Shown here: one piece after another, positions 1-16,238 of the stretch
Numbering within the stretch: the stretch's first letter is position 1
How the letters are laid out: the number at the start of each line of letters is the position of its first letter
Assembly (NCBI RefSeq): GCF_947503125.1
Contig: NZ_CANNCR010000017.1
Coordinates: forward strand, 1-64,000
Direction of reading: 5' to 3'
DNA: 64,000 nucleotides
Origin: an uncultured Metabacillus sp.
Lineage (GTDB): Bacteria; Bacillota; Bacilli; Bacillales; Bacillaceae
Position numbers and translations under genes: made by a program
The notes under the pieces: model-generated
What the model saw: only the letters and a program-made list of their open reading frames with translations
Told to the model about the DNA's origin: nothing
Databases searched by the model: none

Positions 1-46
1 CGCTCGAGGTACAAAACTTATTTCATTACGTTTTGTGCCTTGAGCG
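1..46. repeat. Imperfect inverted repeat (17-bp stem) before the first gene
   Basis: Arms 1-17 and 30-46 pair over 17 bp with two G-U wobbles around a 12-nt loop. It lies just upstream of the first dehydrogenase. It could be the terminator of a gene outside the window, a palindromic operator or a leader hairpin. No T-run follows it, so a plain terminator is the weaker reading. Confidence 0.5.
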
Positions 47-69
47 AAGCGAAAGGAATGGGTATAAAA

Positions 70-1254
70 ATGAAAAAATTAAATGTAGGTATGATTGGCG
101 GAGGATTTATGGGGAAAGCGCACGCACTTGCTTATGCGGGGATGCCGATGTTTTTTTGGCCGGCACCAGCGATTCCTCATCGTCACACACTAGTTGATGT
201 TACAGAAGAATTAGCAAAAGATGCAGCTGCAAAGTTAGGATTTGACCATTATGCTACTGATTGGAGAGAGGTAGTTAACGATCCAAACATTGATATTATC
301 GATATTGTCACACCTAATAATACTCATGCTGAGATTGCTATTGCTGCTGCAAAAGCGGGTAAACATGTCATTTGTGAAAAACCACTTGCACTAGGTGCTG
401 AAGAAGCAAAGACAATGCTAGCTGCAGTAACAGAAGCCGGCGTCAAACATATGGTTGCCTTTAACTACAGAAGAACACCTGCTGTGGCATTAGCGAAAAA
501 ATATATTGAAGAAGGAAGAATCGGGAAAGTGTTAAGCTTCCGTGGTACGTATCTGCAAGACTGGTCTGCTGATCCAAATTCACCTTTATCATGGCGTTTC
601 CAGAAAAAAGTTGCTGGATCTGGTGCTTTAGGTGATATCGGAACACATGTAGTAGACTTTGCACGTTACCTAGTCGGTGAAATCACAGATGTAAATGCCG
701 TAACAAAAACATGGATTACGGAAAGACCGATTCAAACAGGCGGCGTAGACAAATTAGGTACTGTTAAAAGTGCTGGCGATGTGCCAAAAGGTGCAGTTGA
801 TGTAGATGATGAATTTATTACTATGGTCAAGTTTGATAATGGTGCTATCGGGACAATTGAAGCAACCCGTAATGCGTGGGGACGTAATAACTATTTAACT
901 TTTGAAATCCATGGTGAGAAAGGTTCTCTAGCATTCAACTATGAACGTCGTGATGAACTGCAAGTATGCTTCTCTGACGATCCTGGCGATGCTAAAGGAT
1001 TCCGTACAGTTTATACAGGGCCGGCTCATCCATACGGAGAAGGATTATGGCCAATTCCTGCATTAGGTATTGGTTATGGAGAAACAAAAATCATTGAAAC
1101 ATATGATTTCTTTAAATCAATAACAGAAGATACAGAGGTTTCACCAAACTTCAAGGATGGATATCAGATTGAAGTCATTGCTGATGCGATTCTAGAATCA
1201 GCTGAAAAAGGTGAATGGGTAAGTACTTCCAAAAATTTAGTTGAAGTTAAGTAA
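70..1254 (+). CDS. lgdA: Gfo/Idh/MocA dehydrogenase, levoglucosan dehydrogenase-like
   Basis: NAD-dependent sugar dehydrogenase of 394 residues, cytoplasmic. The N-terminal Rossmann fold shows GGGFMG at residues 10-15 and the family EKP motif near 103-105; the C-terminal half is the Gfo/Idh substrate domain. The stretch FFWPAPAIPHRH after the nucleotide motif and GTYLQDWSADPNSPLSWRF match what I remember of bacterial levoglucosan dehydrogenases, which oxidise C3 of 1,6-anhydroglucose. ATG at 70 is preferred over in-frame codons at 40 and 58 because GAAAGGA at 51-57 is correctly spaced only for it. It leads a cluster with a second Gfo/Idh enzyme, a TIM-barrel lyase, a permease and a glucokinase. 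The exact substrate is inference; another 3-oxidised glucoside or an inositol is possible. Confidence 0.82.
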   Translation: MKKLNVGMIGGGFMGKAHALAYAGMPMFFWPAPAIPHRHTLVDVTEELAKDAAAKLGFDHYATDWREVVNDPNIDIIDIVTPNNTHAEIAIAAAKAGKHVICEKPLALGAEEAKTMLAAVTEAGVKHMVAFNYRRTPAVALAKKYIEEGRIGKVLSFRGTYLQDWSADPNSPLSWRFQKKVAGSGALGDIGTHVVDFARYLVGEITDVNAVTKTWITERPIQTGGVDKLGTVKSAGDVPKGAVDVDDEFITMVKFDNGAIGTIEATRNAWGRNNYLTFEIHGEKGSLAFNYERRDELQVCFSDDPGDAKGFRTVYTGPAHPYGEGLWPIPALGIGYGETKIIETYDFFKSITEDTEVSPNFKDGYQIEVIADAILESAEKGEWVSTSKNLVEVK

Positions 1255-1264
1255 AAATTTAAGA

Positions 1265-1293
1265 GAGGCTGCTCCTGTTGGGAGTGGCCTTAT
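1265..1293 (+). terminator. Weak hairpin after lgdA-like gene
   Basis: GGCTGCTCC and GGGAGTGGCC pair with G-U wobbles around a 4-nt loop. No good T-run follows, so it may be an intercistronic processing or attenuation hairpin rather than a full stop. Confidence 0.35.
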
Positions 1294-1454
1294 AAGTTAA
1301 AAATAACCTGTGTTTTTTAAAAATTTGTTTCAATAATATTTAAATTCGTGGATTTGGAACAATAGCCTTTCTTTTAGTGAACAAATCATTATGTAAGCTT
1401 GGTGACGGTTCAGTAGAAAAACATGAATATTATAGTTTTGGGGAGGATCAAATC

Positions 1455-2633
1455 ATGGAAAAGGTAAAAGTGGGCATCATTGGGACTGGTTTTATCGGAC
1501 CAACACATATTGAAGCCATAAGAAGATTGGGATTTGTCGAAGTAGTTGGGTTAGCTGAGAGTAGTCAAGAGTCCGCTGAAAAAAAAGCAGCTGAACTAGG
1601 TATTCCAAAAGCCTTCGGCGATTACCGTGACATGCTGCGAGACAGCGAAATCCAGGTGGTTCATAACTGTACTCCAAATCACCTTCACTTTAAGATTAAT
1701 AAAAAGATTATTCAAGCAGGTAAACATGTATTATCAGAAAAGCCGTTAGCGATGTCTAGCGAGGAATCAGCAGAGTTATTGGCATTAGCGAAAGAGCACA
1801 AGGTTGTACATGGAGTGAACTTTAATTATCGACAATTTCCTATTGTTAGACAGTTGTCAGTAATGATCAAAAATGGAGAATTGGGAAAAGTCAACTTAGT
1901 TCACGGAAGCTATTTGCAGGATTGGTTATTGTTTGAGACCGATTTTAACTGGCGTTTAGCTCCTGAAGTAGGTGGGAAATCACGAGCAATAGCTGATATT
2001 GGATCACACTGGTGTGATACGGTTCAAAATGTAACCGGCAAACGAATAGTGGAAGTGTTTGCTGATTTAGCAACTGTTATACCAGTAAGGAAGAAACCTG
2101 CATCGAATGTTGCGACTTTTGGAGCTCACCAAGCACAGGAATCACAATATGAAGATGTTGCGATTAATACAGAAGACTATGCATCTGTCCTTGTCCGTTT
2201 TGAAGATGGATCTAGAGGGGTATTTACGGTTTCACAAGTTAGTGCCGGACGTAAAAACCGACTAAGCTTTGAAGTAAATGGAAGTCAAAAATCAGCCTAC
2301 TGGAACCAGGAAGAACCCGAGAAATTATGGATTGGGCATCGAGACAGACCAAATGAAGTTCTTCAGGCGGATCCTGCTTTGTTTTTACCGGAAGCACGCT
2401 CAGAAATTCATCATCCAGGAGGCCACAATGAAGGCTGGCCAGACGCTTTAAAAAATATGATGAGTAACTTTTATACCTTTATTCGAGATGGCAAAGACCC
2501 GATAAATGACAACGCAAATTTTGCAACCTTTGAAGATGGACATATTTCTATGTGTATCACAGATGCCATTTTAGAAAGCCATGAACAACAAAAATGGGTG
2601 AAAGTCCAAATGGGGCAGGAGGTTCATGCATGA
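1455..2633 (+). CDS. Gfo/Idh/MocA oxidoreductase, putative 3-keto-sugar reductase of the same cluster
   Basis: 392-residue NAD(P)-dependent oxidoreductase. It has the Rossmann motif GTGFIG near residues 9-14, SEKPLA around residue 95, and a GSYLQDW motif matching the upstream dehydrogenase, so the two are paralogues. ATG 1455 is chosen because GGGAGGA at 1441-1447 sits 7 nt upstream; an in-frame extension to 1377 lacks a ribosome site. Its stop overlaps the start of the next gene (ATGA at 2630-2633), which implies translational coupling. In the levoglucosan route known from Bacillus a second Gfo/Idh enzyme reduces 3-keto-glucose to glucose (LgdC), and this gene is the natural candidate. That role is inferred from context; the family membership is clear. 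Confidence 0.75.
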   Translation: MEKVKVGIIGTGFIGPTHIEAIRRLGFVEVVGLAESSQESAEKKAAELGIPKAFGDYRDMLRDSEIQVVHNCTPNHLHFKINKKIIQAGKHVLSEKPLAMSSEESAELLALAKEHKVVHGVNFNYRQFPIVRQLSVMIKNGELGKVNLVHGSYLQDWLLFETDFNWRLAPEVGGKSRAIADIGSHWCDTVQNVTGKRIVEVFADLATVIPVRKKPASNVATFGAHQAQESQYEDVAINTEDYASVLVRFEDGSRGVFTVSQVSAGRKNRLSFEVNGSQKSAYWNQEEPEKLWIGHRDRPNEVLQADPALFLPEARSEIHHPGGHNEGWPDALKNMMSNFYTFIRDGKDPINDNANFATFEDGHISMCITDAILESHEQQKWVKVQMGQEVHA

Positions 2634-3602
2634 AACTAGGTGTATTTACCGTTCTATATCAAAACTTGGCCTTTGAGACCATGTTGGACAAGATGGTTGA
2701 AATGGGTGTAGAAGCAGTAGAATTAGGAACAGGTAATTATCCGGGGAGCAGCCATTGTAATCCGGATGAACTTTTAGAAAATCCCAAGAAAATAAGATTA
2801 TTTCAACGTGCTATTGAACAAAGAGGACTAACTATCAGCGGTTTAAGCTGCCATGGTAATCCGCTTCATCCAGATAAAAAAATTGCGGCGGATTCTCATG
2901 AAGTTTGGAGAAAAACAGTCTTGTTAGCGGAACGCCTTGAGGTGCCTGTTGTGAACGGATTTTCTGGCTGTCCGGGTGATCCACCCAAATGCAAAATTTC
3001 CAAATTGGGTTACATGCTCCTGGCCACCAGAATACGCGGAGGTTCTGAATTGGCAATGGAATGAAGTGGTGATTCCTTATTGGAAAGAAGAAGCCAAATT
3101 TGCGGAATCACATGGTATCAATCGAGTTGCGTTTGAAATGCATCCAGGTTTTGTGGTATTCAACCCCGATACATTGCTGAAATTAAGAGAACAGGCTGGA
3201 CCAGTCATTGGAGCCAATTTTGATCCGAGCCATCTAGTATGGCAAGGTATCAATCCTGTAGAAGCGATTAAGAAACTTGGGAAAGAAAATGCAATTTATC
3301 ATGTTCATGCAAAAGATATATATTTGGATCAAGCAAATATTCACGTAAATGGTGTCTTAGACACGAAACATTACAGCGATATTTTAAATCGATCTTGGAC
3401 ATTCCGATCAGTAGGATATGGTCAAAGTGAAAAGGTATGGAAAGATATTTTAAGTGCTCTCAGTGCAGTTGGTTATGATTATGTCGTTTCCATCGAGCAT
3501 GAAGATATGATGGCGTCCATTGATGAAGGATTAGGCAAGGCCGTTTCTTTCTTAAAAGGAATCATGTTTAAAGAGCAACCAACGGAAATGTGGTGGGCAT
3601 AA
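2630..3602 (+). pseudogene. Sugar phosphate isomerase/epimerase-type TIM barrel, broken by a +1 frameshift
   Basis: Two overlapping frames make one AP-endonuclease-2/xylose-isomerase-like TIM barrel of about 323 residues. The first frame (from ATG 2630, ribosome site GGCAGGAGG) covers roughly the first 117 residues and ends NGFSGCPGD. The second begins with HPNAKFPNWVTCSWPPEY and runs to 3602. Deleting one C of the CC at 2981-2982 restores a continuous protein. Family members in Gfo/Idh clusters perform beta-elimination or hydration on 3-keto-sugars (LgdB type), using His/Glu/Asp metal ligands; EMHPG and the HVHAKD and SIEHED segments look intact. The break is either a sequencing error or a true inactivating mutation that would stop the pathway. 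Confidence 0.78.
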
Positions 3603-3618
3603 GGACGTATGTGTTGTA

Positions 3619-3672
3619 GAGGCAATACACGTCTTTAACATCAACAATTGGAGACTGTCTCAATTGTTGTAA
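3619..3672 (+). other. Intergenic hairpins before the permease gene
   Basis: CAACAATTG and CAATTGTTG form an inverted repeat just upstream of the MFS gene, and a second imperfect hairpin with arms near GACGTATGTGTTG and CAATACACGTC precedes it. Neither has a convincing T-run. They may limit read-through or form an operator. Confidence 0.3.
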
Positions 3673-3723
3673 CAAGGCTTAGTCACCATATGTATAAAAT
3701 AATATAATGTTGAGGTGATAAAA

Positions 3724-5004
3724 ATGAACGCGATTTCAGGAAAAGAACGAAATATCGCAGGATTGCCGATCGCCGTGATTTGGGGTTATGTCGCCATGCT
3801 CATCTTTATGGCGGGTGACGGTCTAGAGCACGCATGGTTGTCTCCGTATCTTATCGAAAAGGGATTGACTGTTCAACAATCAGCTACTCTTTTTGCAGTA
3901 TATGGAGCAGTGTTGGCGATCGCATCTTACTTTTCTGGTGTACTCACCGAAATGTGGGGACCAAGGAAAGTAATGCTTATAGGATTGGTTACTTGGCTAA
4001 TTGGTCAGGTTCTATTTATTGAATATGGTTTAAAACTAAACAGTTACGCTATCATGTTACCGACTTATGGAATTAGAGGATTGGGTTATCCATTATTTTG
4101 CTACTCCTTCTTAGTATGGATAACTTACCGAAGTCCTGATCGCATTTTGGCTACAGCTATAGGTCTGTTTTGGGCAGCCTGGAGCGGAGGGCTTTATGTT
4201 GTGGGCAGTTATTTTCCAGCATACATGTTACCGAAAATTGGATATATCGGCCTGTTGTGGAGTGCAGTGGCTTGGGTAGTAATTGGTGGTATTATTGGTC
4301 TTATCGTGGTGAAAGACGATATAAGAAAAGAGCAAAAGGGAATTGCGAAGGAGAAACTAAAAAGCTTAATGAGTGGATTTACCATTTGTATCGAACAGCC
4401 GAAAGTTGCTATAGGCGGAGTTGTCCGGATTATCAATTCGACAGGTATAGGTGCTCTTCCAATCTTTTTCCCAATGTACTTGTCTTCAAAATATGGATTC
4501 ACCACTGAACAGTTTCTGCAAATGTGGGGAACCATGTGGTTTGCAAATATCATATTTAACCTCATCATCCCTTACATTAGTGATAGATGGTTAGGCTGGC
4601 GCAAAACGATTATGTGGCTTGGCAGCTTCGGAATGGGTGTCATATTACTGGTTATGCTTTACACGCCGCAAGTTTTTGGCAGCAGTTTCTTGGCCTTGAA
4701 TATTGTGGGTATTATCATGGGAATTGTTCTTTGTGGCTTTGTCCCACTTTCAGCCCTTGTAACATCGTTGACACCTGAGAAAAAAGGATCTGCAATGTCT
4801 ATTGTAAGTTTTGGTGCAGGTTTGTCCTACTTTATCGCTCCGGCTATCGTGGGAGCATTCATCGGAAGTATAGGTGTTCATGGAGTTATGTGGATATTCG
4901 CCGGCTTGTATTTTCTTGGAGCATTTTTGATGAAATTTATGAAATTGCCAAATGAAGAAAAACAAAATGAAAGCGGTCATCTTTCTGAGAGACATGCTGG
5001 TTAA
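3724..5004 (+). CDS. MFS permease, polyol permease-like (RbtT/DalT type)
   Basis: 426-residue major facilitator with about 12 hydrophobic segments and the usual central cytoplasmic loop (KDDIRKEQKG region near residue 200). The loop 2-3 motif reads GVLTEMWGPRKVM, a variant of the MFS GxxxDxxGRR signature, and the protein resembles polyol/sugar permeases. ATG 3724 is chosen because GAGGTGA at 3712-3718 is properly spaced; the GTG at 3715 lies inside that site. Its position between the dehydrogenase genes and a glucokinase suggests it imports the anhydrosugar or polyol they degrade. The exact substrate cannot be read from sequence. Confidence 0.8.
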   Translation: MNAISGKERNIAGLPIAVIWGYVAMLIFMAGDGLEHAWLSPYLIEKGLTVQQSATLFAVYGAVLAIASYFSGVLTEMWGPRKVMLIGLVTWLIGQVLFIEYGLKLNSYAIMLPTYGIRGLGYPLFCYSFLVWITYRSPDRILATAIGLFWAAWSGGLYVVGSYFPAYMLPKIGYIGLLWSAVAWVVIGGIIGLIVVKDDIRKEQKGIAKEKLKSLMSGFTICIEQPKVAIGGVVRIINSTGIGALPIFFPMYLSSKYGFTTEQFLQMWGTMWFANIIFNLIIPYISDRWLGWRKTIMWLGSFGMGVILLVMLYTPQVFGSSFLALNIVGIIMGIVLCGFVPLSALVTSLTPEKKGSAMSIVSFGAGLSYFIAPAIVGAFIGSIGVHGVMWIFAGLYFLGAFLMKFMKLPNEEKQNESGHLSERHAG

Positions 5005-5083
5005 AGAATGAGAGTGTAAAAAACATAATGAATTTATTGTTTGATCTGACATTATTATAAATTGTTATGTCTTCTATATTGTT

Positions 5084-5118
5084 GGCCTTGTGGGATACAA
5101 ACTACAAGGCCCTTCTTA
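5084..5118 (+). terminator. Rho-independent terminator after MFS gene
   Basis: GGCCTTGT (5084-5091) pairs perfectly with ACAAGGCC (5104-5111), followed by the T-rich CTTCTTAT. It separates the permease gene from the ROK kinase gene. Confidence 0.7.
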
Positions 5119-5284
5119 TAGTTTTACGAAAATATTATATTGTTAGATTGCTAAATTTGCATTTAATGAAGATTAACCATGGTGTTTTATTGATATTTAG
5201 TACTTAATACGAATAATCCATCAACAGTAAGGATTATTACACGCTTTAGAATAAAAATATATTAATGAAAAAGGAAGAGTGAAA

Positions 5285-6355
5285 ATGTCTGTAGAATGGT
5301 TAGTAGGTGTTGACCTAGGGGGAACAACCATTAAGATCGCATTTATTACCTGTAGTGGTGATATCGTTCATAAATGGGAAATTCCTACGAAAAAAAGTGA
5401 GCAAGGAAATAAAATTCCATCAGATATTGGACGATCTATCGATAAAAAACTGATTGAAATTGGAGAAACAAAAAGCAAGTTAATAGGAATTGGCATCGGT
5501 GCACCTGGGCCAGTTAATGATGCAGATGGTTCTATCCATGTTGCCGTTAACTTGGGATTGAGGAACTTCCCATTAAGACAATTGCTTTCTTTAGAAACAG
5601 GCTTGCCTGTAGTTGTGGATAATGATGCTAATATAGCAGCTATCGGCGAAATGTGGAAAGGTGCAGGTGAAGGAGCAAACAATTTGTTATGTGTAACGCT
5701 TGGTACAGGTGTTGGTGGGGGCGTTATTGCAAATGGTGAAATTGTTCATGGTGTGAACGGGGCAGCTGGAGAGATTGGTCATATTACCTCGGTGTTAGAA
5801 GAAGGGGCTATCTGTAATTGCGGAAAGTCAGGGTGTCTAGAAACAGTTGCTTCTGCAACAGGTGTTGTTCGATTAGCCAAGAATATTTTAACATCAACAA
5901 GTACGCCAAGTATTCTAAGGGATGCAGGTAACGAAACGAATGAACTTACAGCCAAACTGATTTTTGAGGCAGCTAAAGCAAGAGATGTGGTTGCTGTTAA
6001 CGTTGTCAATGTATTAGCTTTTCATTTAGGGTTTACTCTTGCCAATATCGCGAACGTATTAAATCCAGAGAAGATTGTCATCGGTGGCGGAGTTTCTAAA
6101 GCTGGAGATATTTTACTGGATTCTGTCAGGGAACAGTTTATCCGTTTTGCATTTCCTCGTGTAGTGGAAGGAGTTGAATTGAACATTGCAACATTAGGAA
6201 ATGATGCAGGGGTTATTGGCGGTGCCTGGTTAGCTAAAACTAAGCTCGCTACTACTGAAGAAATGTTTATTTGCTTAAAAGAGAGACATAGTAATCTTCA
6301 AAAGATTCTAAGAAAAAATATAAATTCTAAAAAAACATTGAATATTAACTATTAA
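5285..6355 (+). CDS. ROK-family glucokinase-like sugar kinase
   Basis: 356-residue ROK kinase that phosphorylates a hexose, probably glucose. The N-terminal phosphate loop is VDLGGTTIK (near residues 7-15). The catalytic Asp lies in VVDNDANIAA, then GTGVGGG, EIGHI, and the zinc-binding CNCGKSGCLE motif near residue 177. The C-terminal tail of about 30 residues beyond the usual end is basic and Asn/Lys-rich. ATG 5285 is used because AAGGAAG (5271-5277) fits it, while the GTG at 5279 is too close. It has its own upstream region but the same orientation as the cluster; phosphorylating glucose would be the last step of the levoglucosan route. The ROK assignment is certain, the sugar is inferred. 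Confidence 0.85.
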   Translation: MSVEWLVGVDLGGTTIKIAFITCSGDIVHKWEIPTKKSEQGNKIPSDIGRSIDKKLIEIGETKSKLIGIGIGAPGPVNDADGSIHVAVNLGLRNFPLRQLLSLETGLPVVVDNDANIAAIGEMWKGAGEGANNLLCVTLGTGVGGGVIANGEIVHGVNGAAGEIGHITSVLEEGAICNCGKSGCLETVASATGVVRLAKNILTSTSTPSILRDAGNETNELTAKLIFEAAKARDVVAVNVVNVLAFHLGFTLANIANVLNPEKIVIGGGVSKAGDILLDSVREQFIRFAFPRVVEGVELNIATLGNDAGVIGGAWLAKTKLATTEEMFICLKERHSNLQKILRKNINSKKTLNINY

Positions 6356-6734
6356 GAGGAATCAGAATGTCTGGCATTTGCGTTATATTTCCATCCTTAT
6401 TTTAAACTTTCAAAAGTTACATCAGTACTGCCATATATATAGATTTTTAATTATACTTTTTATACGATAATGTTATCTAAAAGAGAAAAATGGACGCCTT
6501 TGACCATGTTTTAAGATGGTTTTTTAGATTTATATACTTTTATTATCCAGTTTTTCTTGAGGTTTGAAGGTTGCTGTAAAACCTTCAGCCTCTTGTTTTT
6601 TCAATTAATAGATCTTTCTAGTTTTATTAGGTAAGTATTCATCTCCTAATTAGAATAAGGTACCTTTACTTGTAATAGTTGTTTTCTATATTACAATTTT
6701 GTATTATTTTAACCTTTTTCTTCGTTCAGCAAGA
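6356..6734. other. Gene-free spacer
   Basis: AT-rich DNA without an ORF that I can support in any frame. It holds one terminator-like hairpin near 6559-6600. Together with the decayed GH42 fragment that follows, it looks like a site of past gene loss. Confidence 0.6.
6559..6601 (+). terminator. Terminator-like hairpin
   Basis: GAGG...GAAGGTT and AAAACCTTC...CCTC pair around GCTGT, followed by TTGTTTTTT. It lies about 200 nt after the ROK gene and just before the GH42 remnant, so it may end the ROK transcript. Confidence 0.65.
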
Positions 6735-6973
6735 GCTTCAGCTGCTTTTTATCTAATGATCATTGTTCCTTGTTTATATGTCGCTTCAGACCAATTGCTT
6801 GAACGTTTAAACAAGGTAAAACGGTAAAGTTTATCTTTAACTATTCAGCTGAATTACAAGAGTTAATGTATCCGTTTAAAGATGCTGTTGAATTATTATC
6901 TGATAAACCATTTAAACAGGGTGAAACTATCTTATTAAAGCCTTGGTCATTTATGATTTTTGAAGTGAAGTAG
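6735..6973 (+). pseudogene. Remnant of a GH42 beta-galactosidase
   Basis: Two short coding remains lie in different frames. In the frame of the ATG at 6756, the text MIIVPCLYVASDQLLERLN resembles the trimerisation domain of GH42 beta-galactosidases, where the family has an IVPALYL-type strand. From 6827 a second frame gives KFIFNYSAELQEL and then SFMIFEVK ending at TAG 6971-6973, like the C-terminal beta-domain. The catalytic TIM barrel and most of the middle are missing, so this is a decayed or deleted gene. Family placement rests on recognising these strands and is not certain. Confidence 0.5.
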
Positions 6974-7129
6974 AGGAGCGGGAAACATTTTAATACACAT
7001 TGAGTTTTAACGGAATTTTAGGTGGCCATTCGATTTTTTATGTGATTTCGTCTTCAATTTTGAAAGGTAACTGAAATTCAATTAAAATGAAAGAAAAGTA
7101 ATCAGTTTCTATTGTTCAGGAGAATGAAG

Positions 7130-8122
7130 ATGAATCACCAACAATTAGATCAATTCTTGCGCAAGCTGGATGATATTGAAAAAATTCAAATCATCACCCA
7201 TGAAAATGTAAATGATTATGATGGGAATGAGCTGATCATTGAAGATGACAGCTCTATTCCGCGTTTACAGGAAAAGTATTTTTTTGATAAAGGGCCTGTC
7301 TATATTAGCAAGCACCATCGTTTTGCCGATATGCCCCTGCATATGCACACCTTTATTGAAATGAATTATGTGTATTCAGGGGAATGCCGGCAGCTTTTAA
7401 ATGGGAAAGAAGTAAAATTGACTCAAGGGCAGATTTGCTTGCTAGATAAGGATGTTCCGCACAGCATCCCTGAATTGGGGGAAAATGATATATTGGTTAA
7501 TATCATTATGAAAAAAGAGACATTTTCAACTGCCTTTTTAGGACAGTTGAGCAATAAGGGCATTGTTTCGAGCTTTTTGGCGAATGCTGTTTCAGAGAAT
7601 CAGCGTCATGACAGGTATATACTATTCCATACTGAAAATCATGAAAACTTGCAATTGATTATTCGGAATATGCTTTGCGAGTATTTTGATCCGCAGGACT
7701 ACTCGATGGAATTGGTGAGCTATTATATGCCAATCCTCTTTACTGAGCTTATGCGTGTTTACACATTAGATAAAAACTTTGAACTTGCGAAATCATCAGG
7801 AAAGACAAATATCATTGAAATCCTGCAGTATATTGAGGAGCATTATAAGGATTGTACATTAACAAGTTTAGCAGAAACCTTTAATTTCAATGCAAATTAC
7901 CTAGGAAATATGCTGAAGGAACGAACAGGTAAAACATTTCTTGAACTTGTGCAAACACAAAGAATGATTAATGCTGAAAGCCTACTAACAAATACAGATA
8001 AAAGTATCGATGAAATTGCTTTTCAAGTCGGCTATGACAGCCTTAGCTTCTTTTACCGAAAGTTCAAAGAGCTATACGGAGAAACGCCGAGTCGATATCG
8101 GAAAAATAAAAGGACTGTCTAA
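7130..8122 (+). CDS. AraC-family regulator with N-terminal cupin domain
   Basis: 330-residue transcription factor. Residues about 45-170 form the cupin-like effector domain (HHRFADMPLHMHTFIEMNYV and the following LLNGKEVKLTQGQICLLD). The last 100 residues are the two-helix-turn-helix AraC domain ending YDSLSFFYRKFKELYG-ETPSRYRK, the canonical second HTH. ATG 7130 is preferred to ATG 7124 and TTG 7112 because CAGGAGA at 7118-7124 is properly spaced only for it. It converges on the minus-strand GH78-symporter pair and probably controls it or the rhamnoside genes beyond; no effector can be read from sequence. Confidence 0.85.
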   Translation: MNHQQLDQFLRKLDDIEKIQIITHENVNDYDGNELIIEDDSSIPRLQEKYFFDKGPVYISKHHRFADMPLHMHTFIEMNYVYSGECRQLLNGKEVKLTQGQICLLDKDVPHSIPELGENDILVNIIMKKETFSTAFLGQLSNKGIVSSFLANAVSENQRHDRYILFHTENHENLQLIIRNMLCEYFDPQDYSMELVSYYMPILFTELMRVYTLDKNFELAKSSGKTNIIEILQYIEEHYKDCTLTSLAETFNFNANYLGNMLKERTGKTFLELVQTQRMINAESLLTNTDKSIDEIAFQVGYDSLSFFYRKFKELYGETPSRYRKNKRTV

Positions 8123-8149
8123 ATACGGGGGCAGTCCCCGGTATTTTTT
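8123..8149 (+). terminator. Terminator of the AraC gene
   Basis: ATACGGGG and CCCCGGTAT pair around GCAGT and are followed by TTTTT. It starts right after the TAA stop. Confidence 0.75.
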
Positions 8150-8159
8150 ACTCGATTAA

Positions 8160-8202
8160 AAGGGACATTCCCAAAATCCTACTATTTGGGACTGTCCCTT
8201 AT
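8160..8202. terminator. Bidirectional terminator between convergent genes
   Basis: AAGGGACATTCCCAAA (8160-8175) pairs with TTTGGGACTGTCCCTT (8185-8200). It lies between the convergent AraC and GH78 genes and can act on both strands. Similar GGGACTGTCCC stems recur at 37.98 kb and, in part, at 45.6 kb. Confidence 0.65.
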
Positions 8203-8218
8203 ATTAAAATTCATAAAT

Positions 8219-9793
8219 CTATAAAGCATACTTACGTATTAAATACGTAGGAGTACAGCTCCAAGCATGGCAGTAACTATTGATTAAATAGCTTCCGTAC
8301 GGTGAAAAGCTCTTATTGGCGGGATCGTATAATTCCCAGAATGTATCAGCACCATCCTTGATCATTTCCCCCCAGTAAGCCTTCATTTGCTCAATTGCTT
8401 GTTCCTTTTCACCAACTAGTATGAGTGCTTCCACAAGATAATGATACATATAAGGTGTTGTCAGCCCAACTTCAGGCTTTTTGGCTAACAAGTGATTCAT
8501 AAGCTTACGGTTAGCTTCAAGTGCCAACACTTCCGCATGAACCATCCAGATTTGGCTTGCCCAGGAAACCTGGCGATCTGAGCCGCTTACGAAAAATCCA
8601 AGGTCTTCATCCCAAAGATGTTCCATTGTCGCATCAATCACTGCTTGCAGCTGTTTTTCTAAATACGCTTGCTTATCGCTCTTCAGAAGAGCTGCCATTT
8701 TTATTGTTCTTCTTAAAGTATAAATTAAGATTGCTTGTGAAGGAGCTTGCTTATTTAGTTTTTCATTCCAATCAATAAATGACCACCATTTTTCATCATC
8801 CTTGACAATTCCTCCCTCATCTAATCGTTCAAGTGCAATCTCAACCTGTCTGTATGCCAGCGGCCACAATTCTGCCAGTGTTTCGTAATCATTCGTTGCT
8901 TCAACATAATCGAATAAAGACGTTGTAAATAATAAGGAATAATCAAATAAATACGTATCATCTGCGATTAGAGAAGGGGCGATAAATAAGTTTGCTGCCA
9001 CTCTTCCCTTGTCATCAGGTACGCCGGCAAATAAATACAAGCATCTTTTCACTAAATCATTTGCTTGAAAGGTCTCATAATTCGCAAGGGCCTGCAAGCG
9101 TAAATCACCAACCCATAAACGGCGATCACGTTTTGGTCCGTCCTCGAAGACCTCTTGCATACAATCCTGCAAGGTTTTGATGCTTACTTTGTCAATTTCC
9201 TTTAGCATTGCATCTTCATGAGCTAATTCTTTTACAAGTGAAGCATCACTAGAAGTAACAGTTATACACTCGACATTATCAAAGGCTACACGATATTTTT
9301 TGGATGTATCAAGAACCTCAACTTTTAAATAACGGAAGCTGTAACGTCGCGGCAATTCAATTACTCCAGGCAACACATCAACATGCAGTGTTTCCTCCTG
9401 CAGCCAGGATGAGCTGATCCATCCGTTATATTCAGAAAAAGGCTCAGCCATTTCAACGGGCATTTCTCCAAATGTCAATTTCAGGTGAAGTGGAGCATCA
9501 GGCGGGCTTCCTACTGGACTTACCTTCATGGAAAGATACCCAACAAGATGTGTACCAAAATCCAGAATGAATTGACCTCCTTTCCCATAATCATAGTTTG
9601 ATAGGTGATCTGCTGATTCAATCACTTCTGTTCCCCAGCCATGAATTTTAGCGGGATTTTCCTCTATTTTTATGAGGCTTTGTGGACGGACTATTTCTTT
9701 TAAAAATTTAGGCATTAATCGTTCAGCTTTTGAGATAAATGTTTCATTTCGTACGATGACTTGATCGGCAACTTTTTGAATTTTTTCGGACAT
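8219..9793 (-). CDS. GH78-family (alpha-L-rhamnosidase-like) glycosidase, compact form
   Basis: 524-residue intracellular protein with no signal peptide. An N-terminal beta-rich part (roughly residues 50-180) leads into an (alpha/alpha)6 barrel. The barrel start carries DGPKRDRRLWVGDLR (about 218-232), the equivalent of the GH78 RDERxGWxGD motif, and the end has DTFWELYDP and SPYGSYLINSYCHAWSCTPTYL, both typical of this family. It is much shorter than the 908-residue GH78 enzyme 10 kb downstream, lacking the extra N-terminal domains, so it may act on small rhamnosides or an imported disaccharide. The start is the ATG at 9793 with AGGTGG upstream; a GTG 12 nt earlier is an alternative. It is 21 nt downstream of the symporter gene, in one operon. 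Confidence 0.75.
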   Translation of the reverse strand: MSEKIQKVADQVIVRNETFISKAERLMPKFLKEIVRPQSLIKIEENPAKIHGWGTEVIESADHLSNYDYGKGGQFILDFGTHLVGYLSMKVSPVGSPPDAPLHLKLTFGEMPVEMAEPFSEYNGWISSSWLQEETLHVDVLPGVIELPRRYSFRYLKVEVLDTSKKYRVAFDNVECITVTSSDASLVKELAHEDAMLKEIDKVSIKTLQDCMQEVFEDGPKRDRRLWVGDLRLQALANYETFQANDLVKRCLYLFAGVPDDKGRVAANLFIAPSLIADDTYLFDYSLLFTTSLFDYVEATNDYETLAELWPLAYRQVEIALERLDEGGIVKDDEKWWSFIDWNEKLNKQAPSQAILIYTLRRTIKMAALLKSDKQAYLEKQLQAVIDATMEHLWDEDLGFFVSGSDRQVSWASQIWMVHAEVLALEANRKLMNHLLAKKPEVGLTTPYMYHYLVEALILVGEKEQAIEQMKAYWGEMIKDGADTFWELYDPANKSFSPYGSYLINSYCHAWSCTPTYLIRKYAL

Positions 9794-9826
9794 GACAATT
9801 TCCACCTATCCTTTGCTAGTTTCATA

Positions 9827-11194
9827 TTATGCTAATTTTGAATGGTCAAATGTTCCATTATCTTCTTTATTTCGTGCATCAATTTCTGCACGGATTTTTG
9901 GATACAATTTATCCAAATTATAAAAACACATAATAATCATTGAAATCACGACCATACCTGCTGGAATGATTAAATAGTTCATTTTAATGGCAAATAAAGC
10001 AGAAGCAGTTTGCGTTTGATTTGGAACATAATTTCCCCAACTTAAAAATAATCCGGAAAGAGCTCCGGCTGCTGCTAACGCAACTTTGCCAATAAATCCG
10101 TTTAAGGCCATCATGATGCCGGCTGCACTTATTCCTGTTTTCCATTCGCCAAAATCTACGGGATCTGCTTGCATTGAAAAATAAATACTTTGTTTTACTC
10201 CAAAACCTAATGCTGTAATGACAGCACCAATCATTAATCCTGTAACGTTTACATTTGCGATGATCATCATGATGATACCTGCAAGATTAATAGTACTTGA
10301 AATCATAAACAAGGTGCGTTTATACATTTTACTTGCAAAAAAAGGTGTGAAAAATGTTCCAATGATTGGAACGAAGGCTCCAATACTAGCTACTACTGAA
10401 GCTAATTCTGGCTGCCCAACATTATAAGTGTAATAATATATTAATGCTCCCTGCATAAAGAAATGAGATCCAAACATAAACACAATATTTAATGCGAAAA
10501 TCAACCAAGGCTTATTCCCTTTTAACGTTGAAAATGCTTGTTTTACAGTTACCTTTTCCTGACGCAATTTTACCTTTTCCTCAACGTTTTTAAAGGTTAC
10601 GAAGAATAACAATGTTGCAATGATTGCGAAAATCACCATCGTCCACAAGAATCCTTGAGCTTGAGAGCCATTTCCTAAAGCATTAACTAAAGGAAGGGTA
10701 ATGGCACTAACTGCAGTAGCTCCAATAAAGGAGAAGATCATTCTAACGGTAGCAAGATTCGTACGCTCCTGTTCATTACTTGTTAAGTTCGGCAGAATTG
10801 ATGCCAACGGAACATTTACCATTGTATAAGCTGTGGATAAGCCGATATAGGTGATATATGCATAAATGAGTTTGCCAACAGGTCCTATATCTGGAACATA
10901 AAAGGCTAAAATGGCGAGCAAACCAAATGGTATCGCTCCCAATAAAAAGTAAGGTCTGGATTTTCCCCAGCGTGTATTCGTTTTATCAATGATAACCCCC
11001 ATAATGATATCAGTAATCCCATCGACGATTCTTGTCACAAGGAACAGCATGCTGACTTGAACAAGAGCAAGTCCCATAACATCTGTATAGAAATACATCA
11101 GATAAAGCGTTATCATTTGCCATATTAAATTACAGGATAAATCGGCAACGCCATAGCCCAAACGTTGGCGCCATAAACCAGTATTGTGATTCAT
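9827..11194 (-). CDS. GPH-family sugar:cation symporter (melibiose carrier type)
   Basis: 455-residue inner-membrane symporter with about 12 transmembrane helices. The N-terminal region GYGVADLSCNLIWQMITLYLMYFYTDVMGL and the loop DGITDIIMGVIIDKTNTRWGKSRPY are diagnostic of glycoside-pentoside-hexuronide transporters (the conserved Asp pair binds the coupling cation). GGAGG lies 8 nt before ATG 11194. It is the first gene of a two-gene operon with the GH78 protein, so it probably imports a rhamnose-containing glycoside, disaccharide or hexuronide. The promoter region carries the direct-repeat motif described at 11279-11323. Confidence 0.88.
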   Translation of the reverse strand: MNHNTGLWRQRLGYGVADLSCNLIWQMITLYLMYFYTDVMGLALVQVSMLFLVTRIVDGITDIIMGVIIDKTNTRWGKSRPYFLLGAIPFGLLAILAFYVPDIGPVGKLIYAYITYIGLSTAYTMVNVPLASILPNLTSNEQERTNLATVRMIFSFIGATAVSAITLPLVNALGNGSQAQGFLWTMVIFAIIATLLFFVTFKNVEEKVKLRQEKVTVKQAFSTLKGNKPWLIFALNIVFMFGSHFFMQGALIYYYTYNVGQPELASVVASIGAFVPIIGTFFTPFFASKMYKRTLFMISSTINLAGIIMMIIANVNVTGLMIGAVITALGFGVKQSIYFSMQADPVDFGEWKTGISAAGIMMALNGFIGKVALAAAGALSGLFLSWGNYVPNQTQTASALFAIKMNYLIIPAGMVVISMIIMCFYNLDKLYPKIRAEIDARNKEDNGTFDHSKLA

Positions 11195-11509
11195 ATCATT
11201 TCCTCCATTTTTTTAACACTAAATTTATTAAAAAATCTTTGTAAAATAGCTTAGTTCTATTAAAGCGATTTCTGAATGTGTAAACAATGATTGTTTTACA
11301 GGAAAAGTTGTCCGTTTTACAGGTGGGAAATATAGTTATTAGTTTTTGTTATTCTTTTCTATTTCTTTTTTTATTTTTGTTTTATATCATATAGTAAATT
11401 AATATTTTTATTCGTTCGGTTTTGAAAAAGATAGATCACTAGGGTTTTTAAATTATTTTTAATATCGCTAGAGTTGTCGAACATCCTAGCAAAGAAAGCA
11501 GGTTCTAGT
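11195..11509. promoter_or_regulatory. Divergent promoter region of the symporter and YesM-type kinase
   Basis: This 315-nt spacer has no ORF. It holds the candidate operator at 11279-11323 and, reading on the minus strand, a TTTACA followed after about 17 nt by AATAGA that could be a weak promoter for the symporter. The plus-strand side is very AT-rich and gives no clear promoter for the kinase. Confidence 0.55.
11279..11323. promoter_or_regulatory. Candidate operator: GTTTTACAGG direct repeats 21 bp apart
   Basis: GTTTTACAGG occurs at 11293-11302 and again at 11314-11323, exactly 21 bp apart, the two-turn spacing typical for AraC-type activators, which include YesN regulators. Read on the minus strand it is CCTGTAAAAC-GGACA, and the same TAAAACGGACA occurs upstream of the ABC-importer operon at 14831-14841. 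TGTAAACAAT/ATTGTTTTACA at 11279-11300 also forms an imperfect palindrome. A role as binding site of the adjacent YesN-like regulator is inferred. Confidence 0.55.
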
Positions 11510-13300
11510 ATGATCAAGCATTTTCATAAGTTTGCTGCTCGCTTTCGGTTTCGAAAAATTCGCAGTCGCTTTCTCGCTGTAATGATTGCTTTATCAGTTC
11601 CCCCGATCTTTATCGTTGGGGTTTTGTCTTATCACATTTCGAAAGAGACATTAATAGAAAATCATCTCCAGGCAAATGAAAATCATTTAAAAACGACGAG
11701 CGAAAGAGCAGATTTATTGTTGCGCAATGTCATTAATATGGAAAGAATTATCCTATCAAATAAAGATTTACGTCAGCAATTAATTGAAAGCGGATCCATT
11801 TCAGATCGGGAACAGGAGGCGCTTAAACTTGGCACATCCAGCCGTTTGCAGCAGATTATGTCAGATTATGCAACTGAGCAGAAATACATTGATTCTGTCT
11901 GCTTGTTTGATAATTATTTTCGAGCTGTCTGTTATGGGCGATCTGACAATGCGGGACGTTACGAAAGTGAAAATAAGCGAATAGGGATTAAAGAAAGTGG
12001 CTGGTATAAAAAAGCTGTCCAAGCTCAGGGGAAAGAAATCTTTTTTGCTAATAATGTACTAGAGGACTTAGACTGGAACAAAACGTTTTCTTCTGTGAAA
12101 TTATTAAGAAATCCAGCTTCAAAGGATTTTGAAACAATCGGACTATTAATTGTAAATATTAATAAATCGATGTTTTCCGAAATGATGAACGAGACGAAGA
12201 ATAATGGATATTTAATTTTAGATGCTTCTAATAATGAAACGAATACAGTATACGCTTCAAATTCACATTATTATGATGAGAATTCAAAAAACGACTTATC
12301 GGAAATTTTTAAACAGAAAGAAGAGGATGGTTATGTCGTAAGCAGTTATGAAAATGAAACAACTGGTTGGTCGTTTGTTTATTTTATTGAAGAACAGGAA
12401 TTGTTGAAACAACCTCACCAAATTCGAGCCGTTACAAACGTAATTGCAGCACTCATTGCGATTAGTGCCGTCATCCTTTCGGTCATTTTATCTGATACCA
12501 TTACCCGCCCTTTGCAAAGAATTAAAAAAATGATGGTGTCATGGGCCAAAGGATCAAGTGAATTTAAAGAGACATTTCATGATGATGAAGTTGGGGCTAT
12601 TGGTGAAACCTTTAAACGAATGACAGCAGAAAATAAAGACCTCAGCGAGAGGCTTATTCGTTCACAATTAAAAGAAAGAGAGACTGAGCTTAGAGTATTA
12701 CAGGCGCAAATCAATCCTCATTTCCTCTATAACACATTAGACTCAATTTATTGGATGGCGATGATTCACAATCATGAAGATATTGGAAAAATGGCCGTTT
12801 CTCTATCTGAAAGCTTTAAAATTAGTTTGAATAAAGGGAAAGAGCTTATTCCGCTTCATCAGGAATTGAAGCATATTGAGCATTACATGACAATTCAAAA
12901 TATTCGATTTGGCAATCGGTTTACCTATATTCAAGAAGTTGATCCTGATCTATTGGATCAGGAAATCTTAAAGCTTTTGCTGCAGCCTCTCGTCGAAAAT
13001 GCCATTTACCATGGGCTGGAGCCCAAAGTTGGAGAAGGAACGATACGATTAACAGCCAGTCGTCTTGAATCAGGCTACATTCTTTTTATTGTCGAAGATG
13101 ATGGGGTAGGAATAAAGAACATAGCATTAACTGAAAAGGGCTATGGATTAGGAAATGTACGTGAGCGTTTGAAGATTTATTACGGATCAACTAGTTCATT
13201 GACGATTAAGAGTGAGGTAAATAAAGGAACAAAAATTGAAATTCGCTTTAATCCTAACGAAGGGAGATGGATGGGAGATGTTGAAAGTCGCAATTTTTGA
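11510..13300 (+). CDS. YesM-type sensor histidine kinase
   Basis: 596-residue membrane kinase. A first transmembrane helix at about residues 20-42 (FLAVMIALSVPPIFIVGVLSY) is followed by an extracellular sensor region to about residue 305, a second helix near 310-330, HAMP, then the phospho-acceptor motif QAQINPHFLYNTLD (His near 404) and a HATPase domain with N-box LVENAIYHGL and G-box GLGNVRERL. This is the LytS/YesM class (His_kinase family). ATG 11510 has GCAGG upstream; an in-frame TTG at 11474 is less likely. It overlaps the regulator gene by 23 nt. Its neighbours suggest it senses rhamnosides or pectin-derived oligosaccharides. Confidence 0.85.
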   Translation: MIKHFHKFAARFRFRKIRSRFLAVMIALSVPPIFIVGVLSYHISKETLIENHLQANENHLKTTSERADLLLRNVINMERIILSNKDLRQQLIESGSISDREQEALKLGTSSRLQQIMSDYATEQKYIDSVCLFDNYFRAVCYGRSDNAGRYESENKRIGIKESGWYKKAVQAQGKEIFFANNVLEDLDWNKTFSSVKLLRNPASKDFETIGLLIVNINKSMFSEMMNETKNNGYLILDASNNETNTVYASNSHYYDENSKNDLSEIFKQKEEDGYVVSSYENETTGWSFVYFIEEQELLKQPHQIRAVTNVIAALIAISAVILSVILSDTITRPLQRIKKMMVSWAKGSSEFKETFHDDEVGAIGETFKRMTAENKDLSERLIRSQLKERETELRVLQAQINPHFLYNTLDSIYWMAMIHNHEDIGKMAVSLSESFKISLNKGKELIPLHQELKHIEHYMTIQNIRFGNRFTYIQEVDPDLLDQEILKLLLQPLVENAIYHGLEPKVGEGTIRLTASRLESGYILFIVEDDGVGIKNIALTEKGYGLGNVRERLKIYYGSTSSLTIKSEVNKGTKIEIRFNPNEGRWMGDVESRNF

Positions 13301-14756
13301 TGATGAATTTATTGTCATTGAAGGCTTAAAAAAAATGATTGATTGGTCTAAATACGGAATGGAGCTTGTTGGTACTGCGAAAGATGGAAATACAGCGTTA
13401 TCCATTTTTCATTCACAACGACCAGATATAATCTTTACTGATATTCGTATGCCAGGTCTAGATGGTCTTCAGTTAATTGGCAAAATCTTATCAGAAGCTC
13501 CGGAAACGAAATGTATCGTTTTTAGCGGATTTAATGAATTTGAATATGTAAAACAAGCGATAAAATTGGGGGTTATCGATTATTTACAAAAGCCGATTAC
13601 GATCCCAATGGTTGAGGAGGCTTTGGAGAAAATCACCCATCGAATTACTAAAGAAAATGAAGTGTTGGAGCTACGTTCTAGATGGCACGAAAGCCAGGAG
13701 GAATTGTTACAGAAGGCTACGTTGGATTTATTACTAGAAGGAAAGGAGGCTGAATCCAAGTGGCAGGAATGCTTTGGAACAGCAGAGGCAAAAAAAATAA
13801 TGGGTGTTACGGTTCTTGCCTATTCAGGTGATCGCTCACTGTTACAATCGAATGCTATGTTCAGTGTTGTTCCGGTTTGGAATGGCAGCACACAACTACT
13901 GGTGTTATTTCATTATGAAAATAATCTTGAAGCGGTTGCGGAGCAATTACTGGCTTGGACTGAACAGGAAGAAGTTACAATTGGTTCTGGTAACACTTAT
14001 CCTGCCATCAAAGATGCAAAGAAAAGTTATCGGGAAGCGCTACATGCATTAAGATATGGCCGTTTTTTGGAAAGTAAGGGTTGGACAAGATTTGAAGACG
14101 TAGGGAAAAACAATAAAATTCCTGAGGATTTATCAACACAAGAGGAAGCCGTTTTGTATTATATGCGCACGGGAAATAAAAAAAGTCTGCTTGGCCAGCT
14201 GGATATTTATATTCAATGGCTTGATTCACAAAAACTCAATCCGGACATGACTGAAAGTGAATCTTTAAAGCTTGTTTATCTCGGCTTAGAAGTTGTAAAA
14301 GAAACAGGTGAGGATATTAAATTAATAGATTACTACCCTCAAAGGGAAATCCGAGAATTAAACACAAGGGAAGAGATGACGAATTGGTTATTTTGCCAAA
14401 TGGAAAAGATGATGGATTTAATCATCACATCTAAAATCTCAAATAAACACAAGGCTGTTGAAAAAGCTAGAGAATATATTGAGAAGAATTATGATCAAGA
14501 TATAACTTTGCAAGAAGTCGCTGAACTTGTAGGAATGAATCCTAACTATTTTAGCGTCTTGTTTAAAGAAGAAATGGGTCTTACGTATATTAAATATTTA
14601 ACGAAGTACAGAATGGAACAAGCAAAGATCATGCTGAAAGCAGGACAAAAAATTTCTGAGGTGAGTGAGAAAGTAGGGTATCTTACGTATCGGCATTTTT
14701 CAGAAGTGTTCAAAAAATATACTGGCATGACGCCAGGGCAGTTTAAAGAGTCATAG
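13278..14756 (+). CDS. YesN-type response regulator (REC + AraC HTH)
   Basis: About 492 residues. The receiver domain carries acidic residues in IFDDE and the phospho-acceptor Asp in IIFTDIRMPG (near residue 54), with the conserved Lys in YLQKP. A long middle linker follows, and the C-terminal AraC-type double HTH (NKHKAVEKAREYIEKNYDQDITL to VGYLTYRHFSEVFKKYTG-MTPGQF). The start is uncertain: ATG 13278 or TTG 13281 both lie close to GGGAG. It is translated in overlap with the kinase gene. It probably activates the ABC importer-rhamnosidase operon and the symporter operon through the repeated TAAAACGGACA sites. Confidence 0.85.
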   Translation: MLKVAIFDDEFIVIEGLKKMIDWSKYGMELVGTAKDGNTALSIFHSQRPDIIFTDIRMPGLDGLQLIGKILSEAPETKCIVFSGFNEFEYVKQAIKLGVIDYLQKPITIPMVEEALEKITHRITKENEVLELRSRWHESQEELLQKATLDLLLEGKEAESKWQECFGTAEAKKIMGVTVLAYSGDRSLLQSNAMFSVVPVWNGSTQLLVLFHYENNLEAVAEQLLAWTEQEEVTIGSGNTYPAIKDAKKSYREALHALRYGRFLESKGWTRFEDVGKNNKIPEDLSTQEEAVLYYMRTGNKKSLLGQLDIYIQWLDSQKLNPDMTESESLKLVYLGLEVVKETGEDIKLIDYYPQREIRELNTREEMTNWLFCQMEKMMDLIITSKISNKHKAVEKAREYIEKNYDQDITLQEVAELVGMNPNYFSVLFKEEMGLTYIKYLTKYRMEQAKIMLKAGQKISEVSEKVGYLTYRHFSEVFKKYTGMTPGQFKES

Positions 14757-14788
14757 AAATTATTCTTATTAAATGTTCGTTCATAGCG

Positions 14789-14819
14789 GCAAACAGGAAA
14801 ACTGTTTGCTCTTTTTTTT
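14789..14819 (+). terminator. Terminator of the yesMN-like operon
   Basis: GCAAACAG pairs with CTGTTTGC around GAAAA, followed by TCTTTTTTTT. It isolates the two-component genes from the ABC importer operon. Confidence 0.85.
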
Positions 14820-14825
14820 GATAAT

Positions 14826-14890
14826 CTGAATAAAACGGACATCACCTGAAAAATGAAGCGCTTACAATGGGTTTTTATTTTATATAGAAT
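14826..14890 (+). promoter_or_regulatory. Promoter and operator of the ABC importer operon
   Basis: TTACAA (14862-14867) and TAGAAT (14885-14890) are 17 nt apart and form a plausible sigma-A promoter. ATGAAGCGCTTACA at 14853-14866 overlaps the -35 and resembles a CcpA cre box (AAGCGCTT core). Directly upstream, CTGAATAAAACGGACA and CTGAAAAATG form a direct repeat about 20 bp apart and share TAAAACGGACA with the operator at 11.3 kb. The layout fits activation by the YesN-like regulator plus catabolite control. Confidence 0.55.
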
Positions 14891-14941
14891 TTAGTTAAGG
14901 ATATACATCCTAAATAAACACATAAAAAGGGGCGTTGTTTG

Positions 14942-16231
14942 ATGAAAAAGGTATTTTTATTATTATTATCGATTGTCATGATTTTCGCTGTTGTCGGTTG
15001 CAGTGGAAATAATGATTCAAGTTCTTCGGGTGAGGGAGAAGAAGGCAATAACACAATGAAATTCATTTCTGAAGATACTGCTGATGAATCAGATGCAAGC
15101 GTTCTTTTGGGGCTTACTGAAGAAAATACAGATACAACTATCGAGCTAGAAACAGTAATGCAAGCGAATTTAATGCAAAAAATTCAATTGCTAACAGCAA
15201 GTAATGATCTTCCTGAATTATTTAAATATGAGTCTAACCAGCTGGGAGATATGATAGATAACGATCAATTGCTTGATTTGGAAAAGACATTTAAAGATCT
15301 GGGCATTTATGAAAAGTTAAATCCAGGCGCAGTTGATTTGTTGAAAAACCTTAGCGGTGACCGGGGTCTTTATGCGTTGCCTGTTGAATTAAATATTGAA
15401 GGTTTTTGGTATAACAAGAAATTGTTTGAAGAAAACAATTTGGAAGTCCCAACGACTTGGGATGAAATGATGGCTGTAAGTAAAGTCTTTATGGAAAAAG
15501 GAATTCAACCTTTTGCTGTAGCGGGTAAAGAAAAATTCCCGATCACACGTTTAATCAATGGCTATGTCATCCGTTTATATGGAGCGGATGCAATGAAGCA
15601 AGTAAAAGAGGGAAAATTGAGTGTTACGGATGAAGGATTTGTTGAAGCAGCTAAAATGGTACAAGATATGAATGCAAAAGGGTATTTTGGCGAAGGTGTA
15701 AATACGATTGATTATGATACAGCAAGCAATACATTCCTTCAAGGAAATGCAGCTATGTATTATATGGGAAGCTGGGCTTTAAATGAGTTTAATGATGAAA
15801 ATTTAAATAAAATTGGCATCGACAATATTGGCTTTTTCAATATTCCGCTTGTTGAAGGAGGAAAAGGGACGATCAATGATTACTCAATGAATGCGGGCTT
15901 AACGCTTTCATTCTCTAAAGCAAAATATAATGAAGAAGTTGGAAACTGGATGAAGGAAGTATTCTCAATCTATGGCGAAAAAGCAATCTCAGAACGCGGT
16001 TTAATTTCCGGCTTTAAGGTTGAAAACATGCCTGAAGATGTAAGCCCTTTAACAAAAATGACATTAGAGAAAATCGAAGAGGTCGAAAATAGTGCCCTTT
16101 GGTTCGAAGGTTATTTTGATCCAAAAACAAAAACGGTTGCAGAAGATGGTGCACAAAATTTACTTAATGATGGAGTTACTCCTGAAGAGTATATGAGCAG
16201 CATAGAGAATTCTTTAGAAAGCGGTAAATAA
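14942..16231 (+). CDS. ABC transporter sugar-binding lipoprotein (family 1)
   Basis: 429-residue extracellular solute-binding protein anchored as a lipoprotein. MKKVFLLLLSIVMIFAVVGC gives a signal with lipobox and Cys near residue 20, followed by a Ser/Gly/Glu-rich linker. The mature part has the two-lobe family-1 pattern (LYALPVELNIEGFWYNKKLFE, then AAMYYMGSWAL), which binds oligosaccharides. Start ATG 14942 has AAAAGGGG upstream. It is the first gene of an operon with two permeases and a GH78 rhamnosidase. The ATPase is not encoded here, so a shared MsmX-type ATPase elsewhere is likely. Confidence 0.9.
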   Translation: MKKVFLLLLSIVMIFAVVGCSGNNDSSSSGEGEEGNNTMKFISEDTADESDASVLLGLTEENTDTTIELETVMQANLMQKIQLLTASNDLPELFKYESNQLGDMIDNDQLLDLEKTFKDLGIYEKLNPGAVDLLKNLSGDRGLYALPVELNIEGFWYNKKLFEENNLEVPTTWDEMMAVSKVFMEKGIQPFAVAGKEKFPITRLINGYVIRLYGADAMKQVKEGKLSVTDEGFVEAAKMVQDMNAKGYFGEGVNTIDYDTASNTFLQGNAAMYYMGSWALNEFNDENLNKIGIDNIGFFNIPLVEGGKGTINDYSMNAGLTLSFSKAKYNEEVGNWMKEVFSIYGEKAISERGLISGFKVENMPEDVSPLTKMTLEKIEEVENSALWFEGYFDPKTKTVAEDGAQNLLNDGVTPEEYMSSIENSLESGK

Positions 16232-16238
16232 GCTTTGG

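Follow-up and report, generated by a model that had tools for sequence, protein, structure and literature searches.

The window analyzed here, a stretch of 64,000 bases (bases 1-64000 of contig C17 in a 5.44 Mb draft assembly of 244 contigs), opens, as we conclude with good confidence, on a partly decayed levoglucosan operon, with an apparently guide-aimed element of the IS110 family sitting between the Shine-Dalgarno (SD) sequence of lgdA and its ATG. Levoglucosan is a sugar formed when wood burns. The chemistry of its degradation is already known and the locus adds an operon of the major facilitator (MFS) type; the insertion matters more than the sugar pathway.

The levoglucosan genes and the decay of lgdB2

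Five cluster genes, every one on the + strand, follow from base 70 onward, and as the window opens at the contig end, the native DNA upstream of the cluster is absent from it. An earlier note on this DNA had described two Gfo/Idh dehydrogenases, a polyol-type MFS permease and a glucokinase, genes for all of which are present, but its claim of a complete module from import to glucose 6-phosphate is not supported, with lgdB2 split between frames, its duplicate wrecked and the kinase not being a conserved member. Behind lgdA lies the gene of an lgdC-type Gfo/Idh/MocA dehydrogenase (1455-2633; PF01408), which adjoins lgdA in relatives. Its product, putatively the 3-ketoglucose reductase by position and homology, is 51% identical to that of the gene adjoining lgdB2 in locus L041, which has a B. 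smithii-like arrangement; in the curated family model search it matched no curated LgdC model. The permease gene (3715-5004; RbtT/DalT/CsbX family, TIGR00897, 489.8 bits at a cut-off of 375) adjoins lgdC/lgdB2 in five loci of relatives and likely encodes the importer of the MFS-type levoglucosan operon. The ROK glucokinase-family gene (5279-6355; TIGR00744, 369.2 bits at a cut-off of 260) is preceded by a terminator-like hairpin at 5084-5111, but the scan gave 10 such sites versus 5.3 in shuffles, so that support for this hairpin is weak. The five other loci with lgdC beside an MFS gene contain no homologue of the kinase, and therefore the conserved unit is the MFS-type levoglucosan operon, with the kinase as a mere neighbor. 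Farther downstream, at 7112-13300, the window carries an AraC-type regulator, two ORFs on the opposite strand, one long and one transporter-like, and then a sensor-kinase-like ORF, which together look like a separate carbohydrate locus.

When 299 genomes from the order were searched, an unbroken lgdC-lgdB2-MFS arrangement was found, among the matches listed, in G186, G124 and G276. The order is LacI-lgdB1-lgdA-lgdC-lgdB2-MFS in G186 and lgdB1-lgdA-lgdC-lgdB2-MFS in G124, the contig of G276 stops before the expected place of lgdA, G231 has lgdB1-lgdA-lgdC-MFS without lgdB2, and G301 has lgdC-MFS close to a contig start. Judged from gene order and homology, the window genes would represent the downstream half of an MFS-type operon that was ancestrally lgdB1-lgdA-lgdC-lgdB2-MFS. 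Levoglucosan would enter via the MFS permease, LgdA, assigned by its family, would oxidize its C3 with NAD, LgdB1 would eliminate the 1,6-bridge, LgdB2 would hydrate the product, and LgdC would reduce it to glucose; the roles of LgdB1, LgdB2 and LgdC are those given in the available text of the B. smithii pathway work (PMC7676230).

The earlier note had suspected a second LgdB-type gene upstream of the window, and lgdB1 indeed exists on contig C57, whose end, judged by homology, most likely is the other flank of the insertion. This gene encodes 271 aa (PF01261, 117.6 bits), which fits the size of about 275 residues expected for LgdB1, and has 87% identity to the gene immediately before lgdA in G186. 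Toward the end of C57, lgdB1 is followed by about 240 bp with the tail of a binding-protein-like gene, then by AGGAGGATTATAA and by the element, so that the flank consists of the binding-protein tail and an AGGAGG. As a homologous binding-protein-like gene immediately precedes lgdA in four relatives (G002, G003, G009, G016), with GGAGG ahead of the lgdA ATG, C57 and C17 most likely flank one and the same insertion, which would place lgdB1 upstream of lgdA. It counts against this reading that the C57-element-C17 join rests on homology and is spanned by no joining read. C57 also carries, at 244-16976 (L042), a second levoglucosan-like gene set of the ABC-transporter type, with a binding-protein-like gene, ABC genes, an intact lgdC, a wrecked lgdB2, an alcohol-dehydrogenase-like gene, several TIM barrels, a LacI-type regulator and lgdB1.

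The TIM-barrel gene that the earlier note had listed in the window is present, as PF01261 matches in both of its parts, but it is not a single reading frame. The N-terminal part lies at 2630-3064 in gene frame 1 (77% identity over 122 aa to the intact copy of G016) and the C-terminal part at 2985-3602 in a different frame (79% over 207 aa to the same copy), and the frame of this xylose-isomerase-like barrel thus changes near 2985. It was putatively assigned to LgdB2, for which about 325 residues are expected, by the length of about 323 aa (about 270 for LgdB1) and by the 69-72% identity of its relatives to the L041 gene beside lgdC. A programmed frameshift was set aside, as the lgdB2 beside lgdC is intact and in one frame in nine of the nine relatives' loci examined (L038-L041, L217-L220, L223; 322-345 aa), and as the second lgdB2 of the source genome, on C57, has multiple lesions, with its frame changing several times and with an in-frame stop as well as a deletion. 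An error of sequencing or assembly in a gene that is in fact whole could account for one sole frame change, the remainder of the sequence being 77-79% identical to an intact relative's. We regard such an error as unlikely, since the multiple lesions of the C57 copy indicate that lgdB2 decay is real in the source strain.

With both strong lgdB2 copies broken, the source genome does not hold all four enzymes of the levoglucosan pathway intact; more distant TIM barrels persist, e.g. on C2 and C50. The operon would be decaying, with one lgdB2 split, the other wrecked, and only a tail left on C57 of the binding-protein gene that precedes lgdA. LgdB2 being the hydratase, the pathway may no longer run. 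In the available text of a survey of lgdA neighborhoods (PMC10066097), 126 of 265 LgdA holders have LgdB1 alone, and loss of LgdB2 therefore need not stop growth on levoglucosan. Units of lgdC and MFS genes without lgdB2 occur in two other genomes (L221, L222), which suggests that lgdB2 was lost repeatedly from the MFS-type operon. The locus is a natural case of lgdB2 loss and as such tests whether LgdB2 is dispensable.

The first gene, lgdA (70-1254), scores 753.8 bits with the curated levoglucosan dehydrogenase model NF052479 (cut-off 650), which agrees with the earlier proposal of a levoglucosan dehydrogenase-like enzyme. The best solved relative of its product is 6a3f (E 7e-193, 643.9 bits, 271 of 385 aligned residues, i.e. 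70%, identical), which we take to be the levoglucosan dehydrogenase of Pseudarthrobacter, the database entry itself reading ‘putative dehydrogenase’. The best inositol/L-glucose dehydrogenases reach 235.8 and 238.7 bits (the latter a scyllo-inositol/L-glucose enzyme), and the myo-inositol family model 158.7 bits at a cut-off of 355. The earlier note had held that higher similarity to scyllo- or myo-inositol dehydrogenases would speak against its assignment; with these scores, this similarity half of the proposed test came out in favor of LgdA. In the source genome, lgdA is the one gene above the NF052479 cut-off, none of 14 control genomes has any, and genus-wide 5 of 21 genomes do, the source genome counted. 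Curated family and rank therefore support the identification of the first protein as LgdA. A polyol-degrading cluster headed by an inositol or L-glucose dehydrogenase, which would match the ribitol and arabitol transporters that gave the permease family its name, and for which the weak similarity of LgdB1/LgdB2 relatives to the inosose dehydratase IolE (under the IolE cut-off) might be cited, is highly improbable, as LgdA lies above the levoglucosan and far below the inositol cut-offs, and such an identity was rejected on the scores given above. Two LgdA paralogues of the source genome remain under the levoglucosan cut-off (G000:C38:16982-18130, 445 bits; C18:14365-15480, 339 bits).

The element end and its insertion sites

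Bases 1-69 (+ strand) are not native upstream DNA but the end of a dispersed mobile element of the IS110 family, namely the end nearest the transposase start, which is cut here by the contig edge. Its bases 1-46 fold as a hairpin (-28.1 kcal/mol, z -6.15), and the core dinucleotide of the element probably is the AA at 66-67. The end occurs at 12 places in the source genome, all of them contig ends, and in none of 20 other members of the genus at up to one mismatch. Eleven of the 12 near flanks meet an ATG and one does not. The frames opened there comprise at least 273 aa in eight cases and 38, 10 and 6 codons in three, and include, as read from the sequences, trpS-like, glycosyltransferase-like and dehydrogenase genes; that 4 of the 12 open nothing above 38 codons is a point against our reading.

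The element's far end, which was recognized on C57, occurs at 11 places, each of them a contig end or close to one. All 11 far flanks end in AA, and 7 of them have GAGG, GGAG or AGGA within the preceding 12 bases, compared with 1021 of 14175 AA-ending sites of the window; the 4 flanks without such an SD-like word again speak against the reading. Five type 1 elements (see below) in other genomes show the same succession of an SD-like word, a few bases, AA and the element. From these flanks, the target is SD-spacer-AA-NN-ATG, and insertion parts the SD from the ATG, the near side meeting ATG in 11/12 and the far side an SD-like word in 7/11 cases. At the levoglucosan operon, the element would have inserted between the lgdA SD, which was left on C57, and the lgdA ATG at the opening of the window. 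The element end would in turn supply an AAAGGA (52-57, + strand) as candidate substitute SD 12 nt before the ATG, so that lgdA could still be translated. An outward promoter was not found on the + strand in 1-69, in a scan of 1-8200 that gave 33 promoter-like sites versus 24.3 in shuffles. The insertion reading gives a hint as to how mobile elements may lie before genes like trpS and do little apparent damage.

A 21-base word of the element end was found in 4 stretches of viral contigs and in at least 116 of genome contigs, 80 of which were used. An ATG follows exactly 9 bases past this word in 70 of 85 matches (84 loci); in another 12, it lies no more than 3 bases away from that position. Of these exact-offset ATGs, 58/70 open at least 60 codons, as do 380/1667 ATGs sampled from the same loci. 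Where at least 600 bp upstream are available, 27 of 57 word matches are accompanied by a divergent transposase-like match, in some cases a fragment, and 30 have none; both IS110 domains, PF01548 (the DEDD transposase domain) and PF02371, were detected in three of three transposase-like proteins tested from relatives of the element. Judging by the 30 matches without transposase, the end may persist as a gene leader once the element itself is gone. Element ends without transposase match include L068, L069, L084, L093 and L094, among others. In a genome of another family of the order (G025; L047, 1-1446), an 86% identical end runs into the ATG of an apparent glycyl-tRNA synthetase gene.

Could proximity to start codons simply mean that the element prefers DNA that is A-rich or exposed, or that harmless insertions survive, without any guide? 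The core is AA, the surroundings are A-rich, and selection would act against insertions within genes. Still, this seems rather improbable in view of the single exact offset of the ATG in 70/85 matches, and because three bases agree element by element with an internal loop, as described below. It is very improbable that the repeat is a conserved, riboswitch-like regulatory leader and no transposon end: it does precede genes such as trpS and folds strongly, but near-identical copies stand before unrelated genes at contig ends, IS110-type transposases lie beside it in the 27/57 matches mentioned, a matching far end exists and is preceded by SD-like words, and Rfam gave zero matches on window positions 1-8200, a result that led us to reject any known regulatory RNA for the start of the window. 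Rfam runs on six other loci gave two sub-threshold microRNA matches.

Proposed guide reading of the bridge RNA

Guides were sought in the 60 matches with at least 180 bp upstream. They could be read in 25, of which 23 were used; L092 was omitted because it shares its genome with L086, and so was the second of the copies in L137. The remaining 35 gave no guide, being solo ends, decayed ends or elements of greater distance, or having escaped the pattern. Four elements (L071, L080, L126, L135) were parsed by hand, and for L126, L129 and L130, where the ATG is one base off its usual place, the triplet directly ahead of the ATG itself was taken. The elements split into type 1 (n=8) and type 2 (n=15). 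Between end and transposase, the non-coding region of all 23, which belong to other genomes than the source, has a TATAA-like word, three variable bases, a trinucleotide (ATG in 16, ATA in 6 and ATT in 1, tallied by hand), a hairpin and a CCTCC-like word. Read as RNA in the direction of the transposase, this is a GGAGG-like word, the hairpin and CAU-NNN-UUAUA, to which type 2 would add an enclosing stem.

The guide NNN equals the three bases before the ATG of the insertion site in 19 of the 23 elements; in 20000 shuffles, which do not preserve relatedness, the average was 2.6 and the highest value 11/23. Close type 1 relatives differ in NNN and yet still match their sites. Among the four misses, L062, L074 and L076 are by inspection compatible with G-U wobble and L116 is not; likewise, such wobble would let the guides with ATA pair, but not L135 with its ATT. 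In the source genome, the three bases before the ATG are AAA in 9 copies (including the one without ATG) and AAG in 3, which is compatible with a single guide that pairs with wobble.

Evidence on the fold is mixed. A consensus over all 23 elements was poor; type 2 alone gave a loop and type 1 a different consensus, and single-sequence folds (six per type) disagree with the drawn loop. For 14 of the 15 type 2 elements (L112 was left out due to a duplicated hairpin), 87.0% of the cells are paired versus 79.6 and the covariation score is 0.308 versus 0.174 (0/500) and at most 0.112 when slid, both for a structure drawn on these same sequences, and pair types number 17 versus 15.7 (153/500).

It is reasonably probable that a widespread Bacillota group of IS110 elements uses a bridge-RNA loop to read NNN-AUG and an SD and lands between them, with NNN setting the sites and the end bringing an SD-like site. 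With one guide complementary to NNN-AUG and the other copying the SD, such an element could settle between these two signals in many genes, and the SD-like site of its end would allow the gene to remain translatable. The window copy would have aimed in the same way, with one side of the loop complementary to NNN-ATG and the other SD-like. Several points argue against this: 4/23 guides differ from their site, 7/23 read ATA (6) or ATT (1), single folds lack the drawn loop, the type 1 consensus differs, and both the transposase and the bridge RNA of the element itself are absent from the source assembly, where two protein searches yielded no more than a 39-42% fragment, located on the C37 edge. 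The orientation of the element relative to the loop order presumably is the reverse of that in IS621.

Comparison with known systems

That some IS110 elements target translation-start signals has long been observed; a guide RNA encoding these signals is proposed here as the mechanism. Reportedly, the title of a 1997 paper already stated that IS900 targets translation initiation signals. A literature search that was thin on subscription journals found no paper joining start-signal targeting to bridge RNA. For IS900, an IS110-family element of Mycobacterium avium subsp. paratuberculosis, the motif CATGNNNNNNTCTCCTT is given in the available text of PMC8141618, and it reads start codon and SD on the other strand. 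Our element differs from IS900 in that it belongs to another lineage, has its boundary 2 bases from the ATG, brings an AAAGGA with its end, and has a proposed guide loop. The bridge RNA or seekRNA of IS621/IS110 elements, as described in the accessible parts of PMC11208160 and PMC11187229, forms a loop carrying two guides, which are directed at opposite strands about a dinucleotide core; there, too, it stems from a non-coding region upstream of the transposase, and guide and target covary. The pairing logic used here is the one published for IS621 (PMC11208160), but the targets are translation starts of many genes and the core is AA, in contrast to the CT of the IS621 analyses.

On the metabolic side, Bacillus smithii S-2701M likewise has LgdA, LgdC, LgdB1 and LgdB2 homologues together, according to the available text of PMC7676230, whereas here an MFS permease replaces the ABC transporter, lgdB2 is broken, and an IS110 insertion precedes lgdA. 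MFS neighbors are also mentioned in the accessible part of the lgdA survey (PMC10066097), from which our case differs by the decay of both lgdB2 copies in one genome. The levoglucosan operon is of a known kind and the kind of insertion is known from IS900; the evidence on start-site recognition is new.
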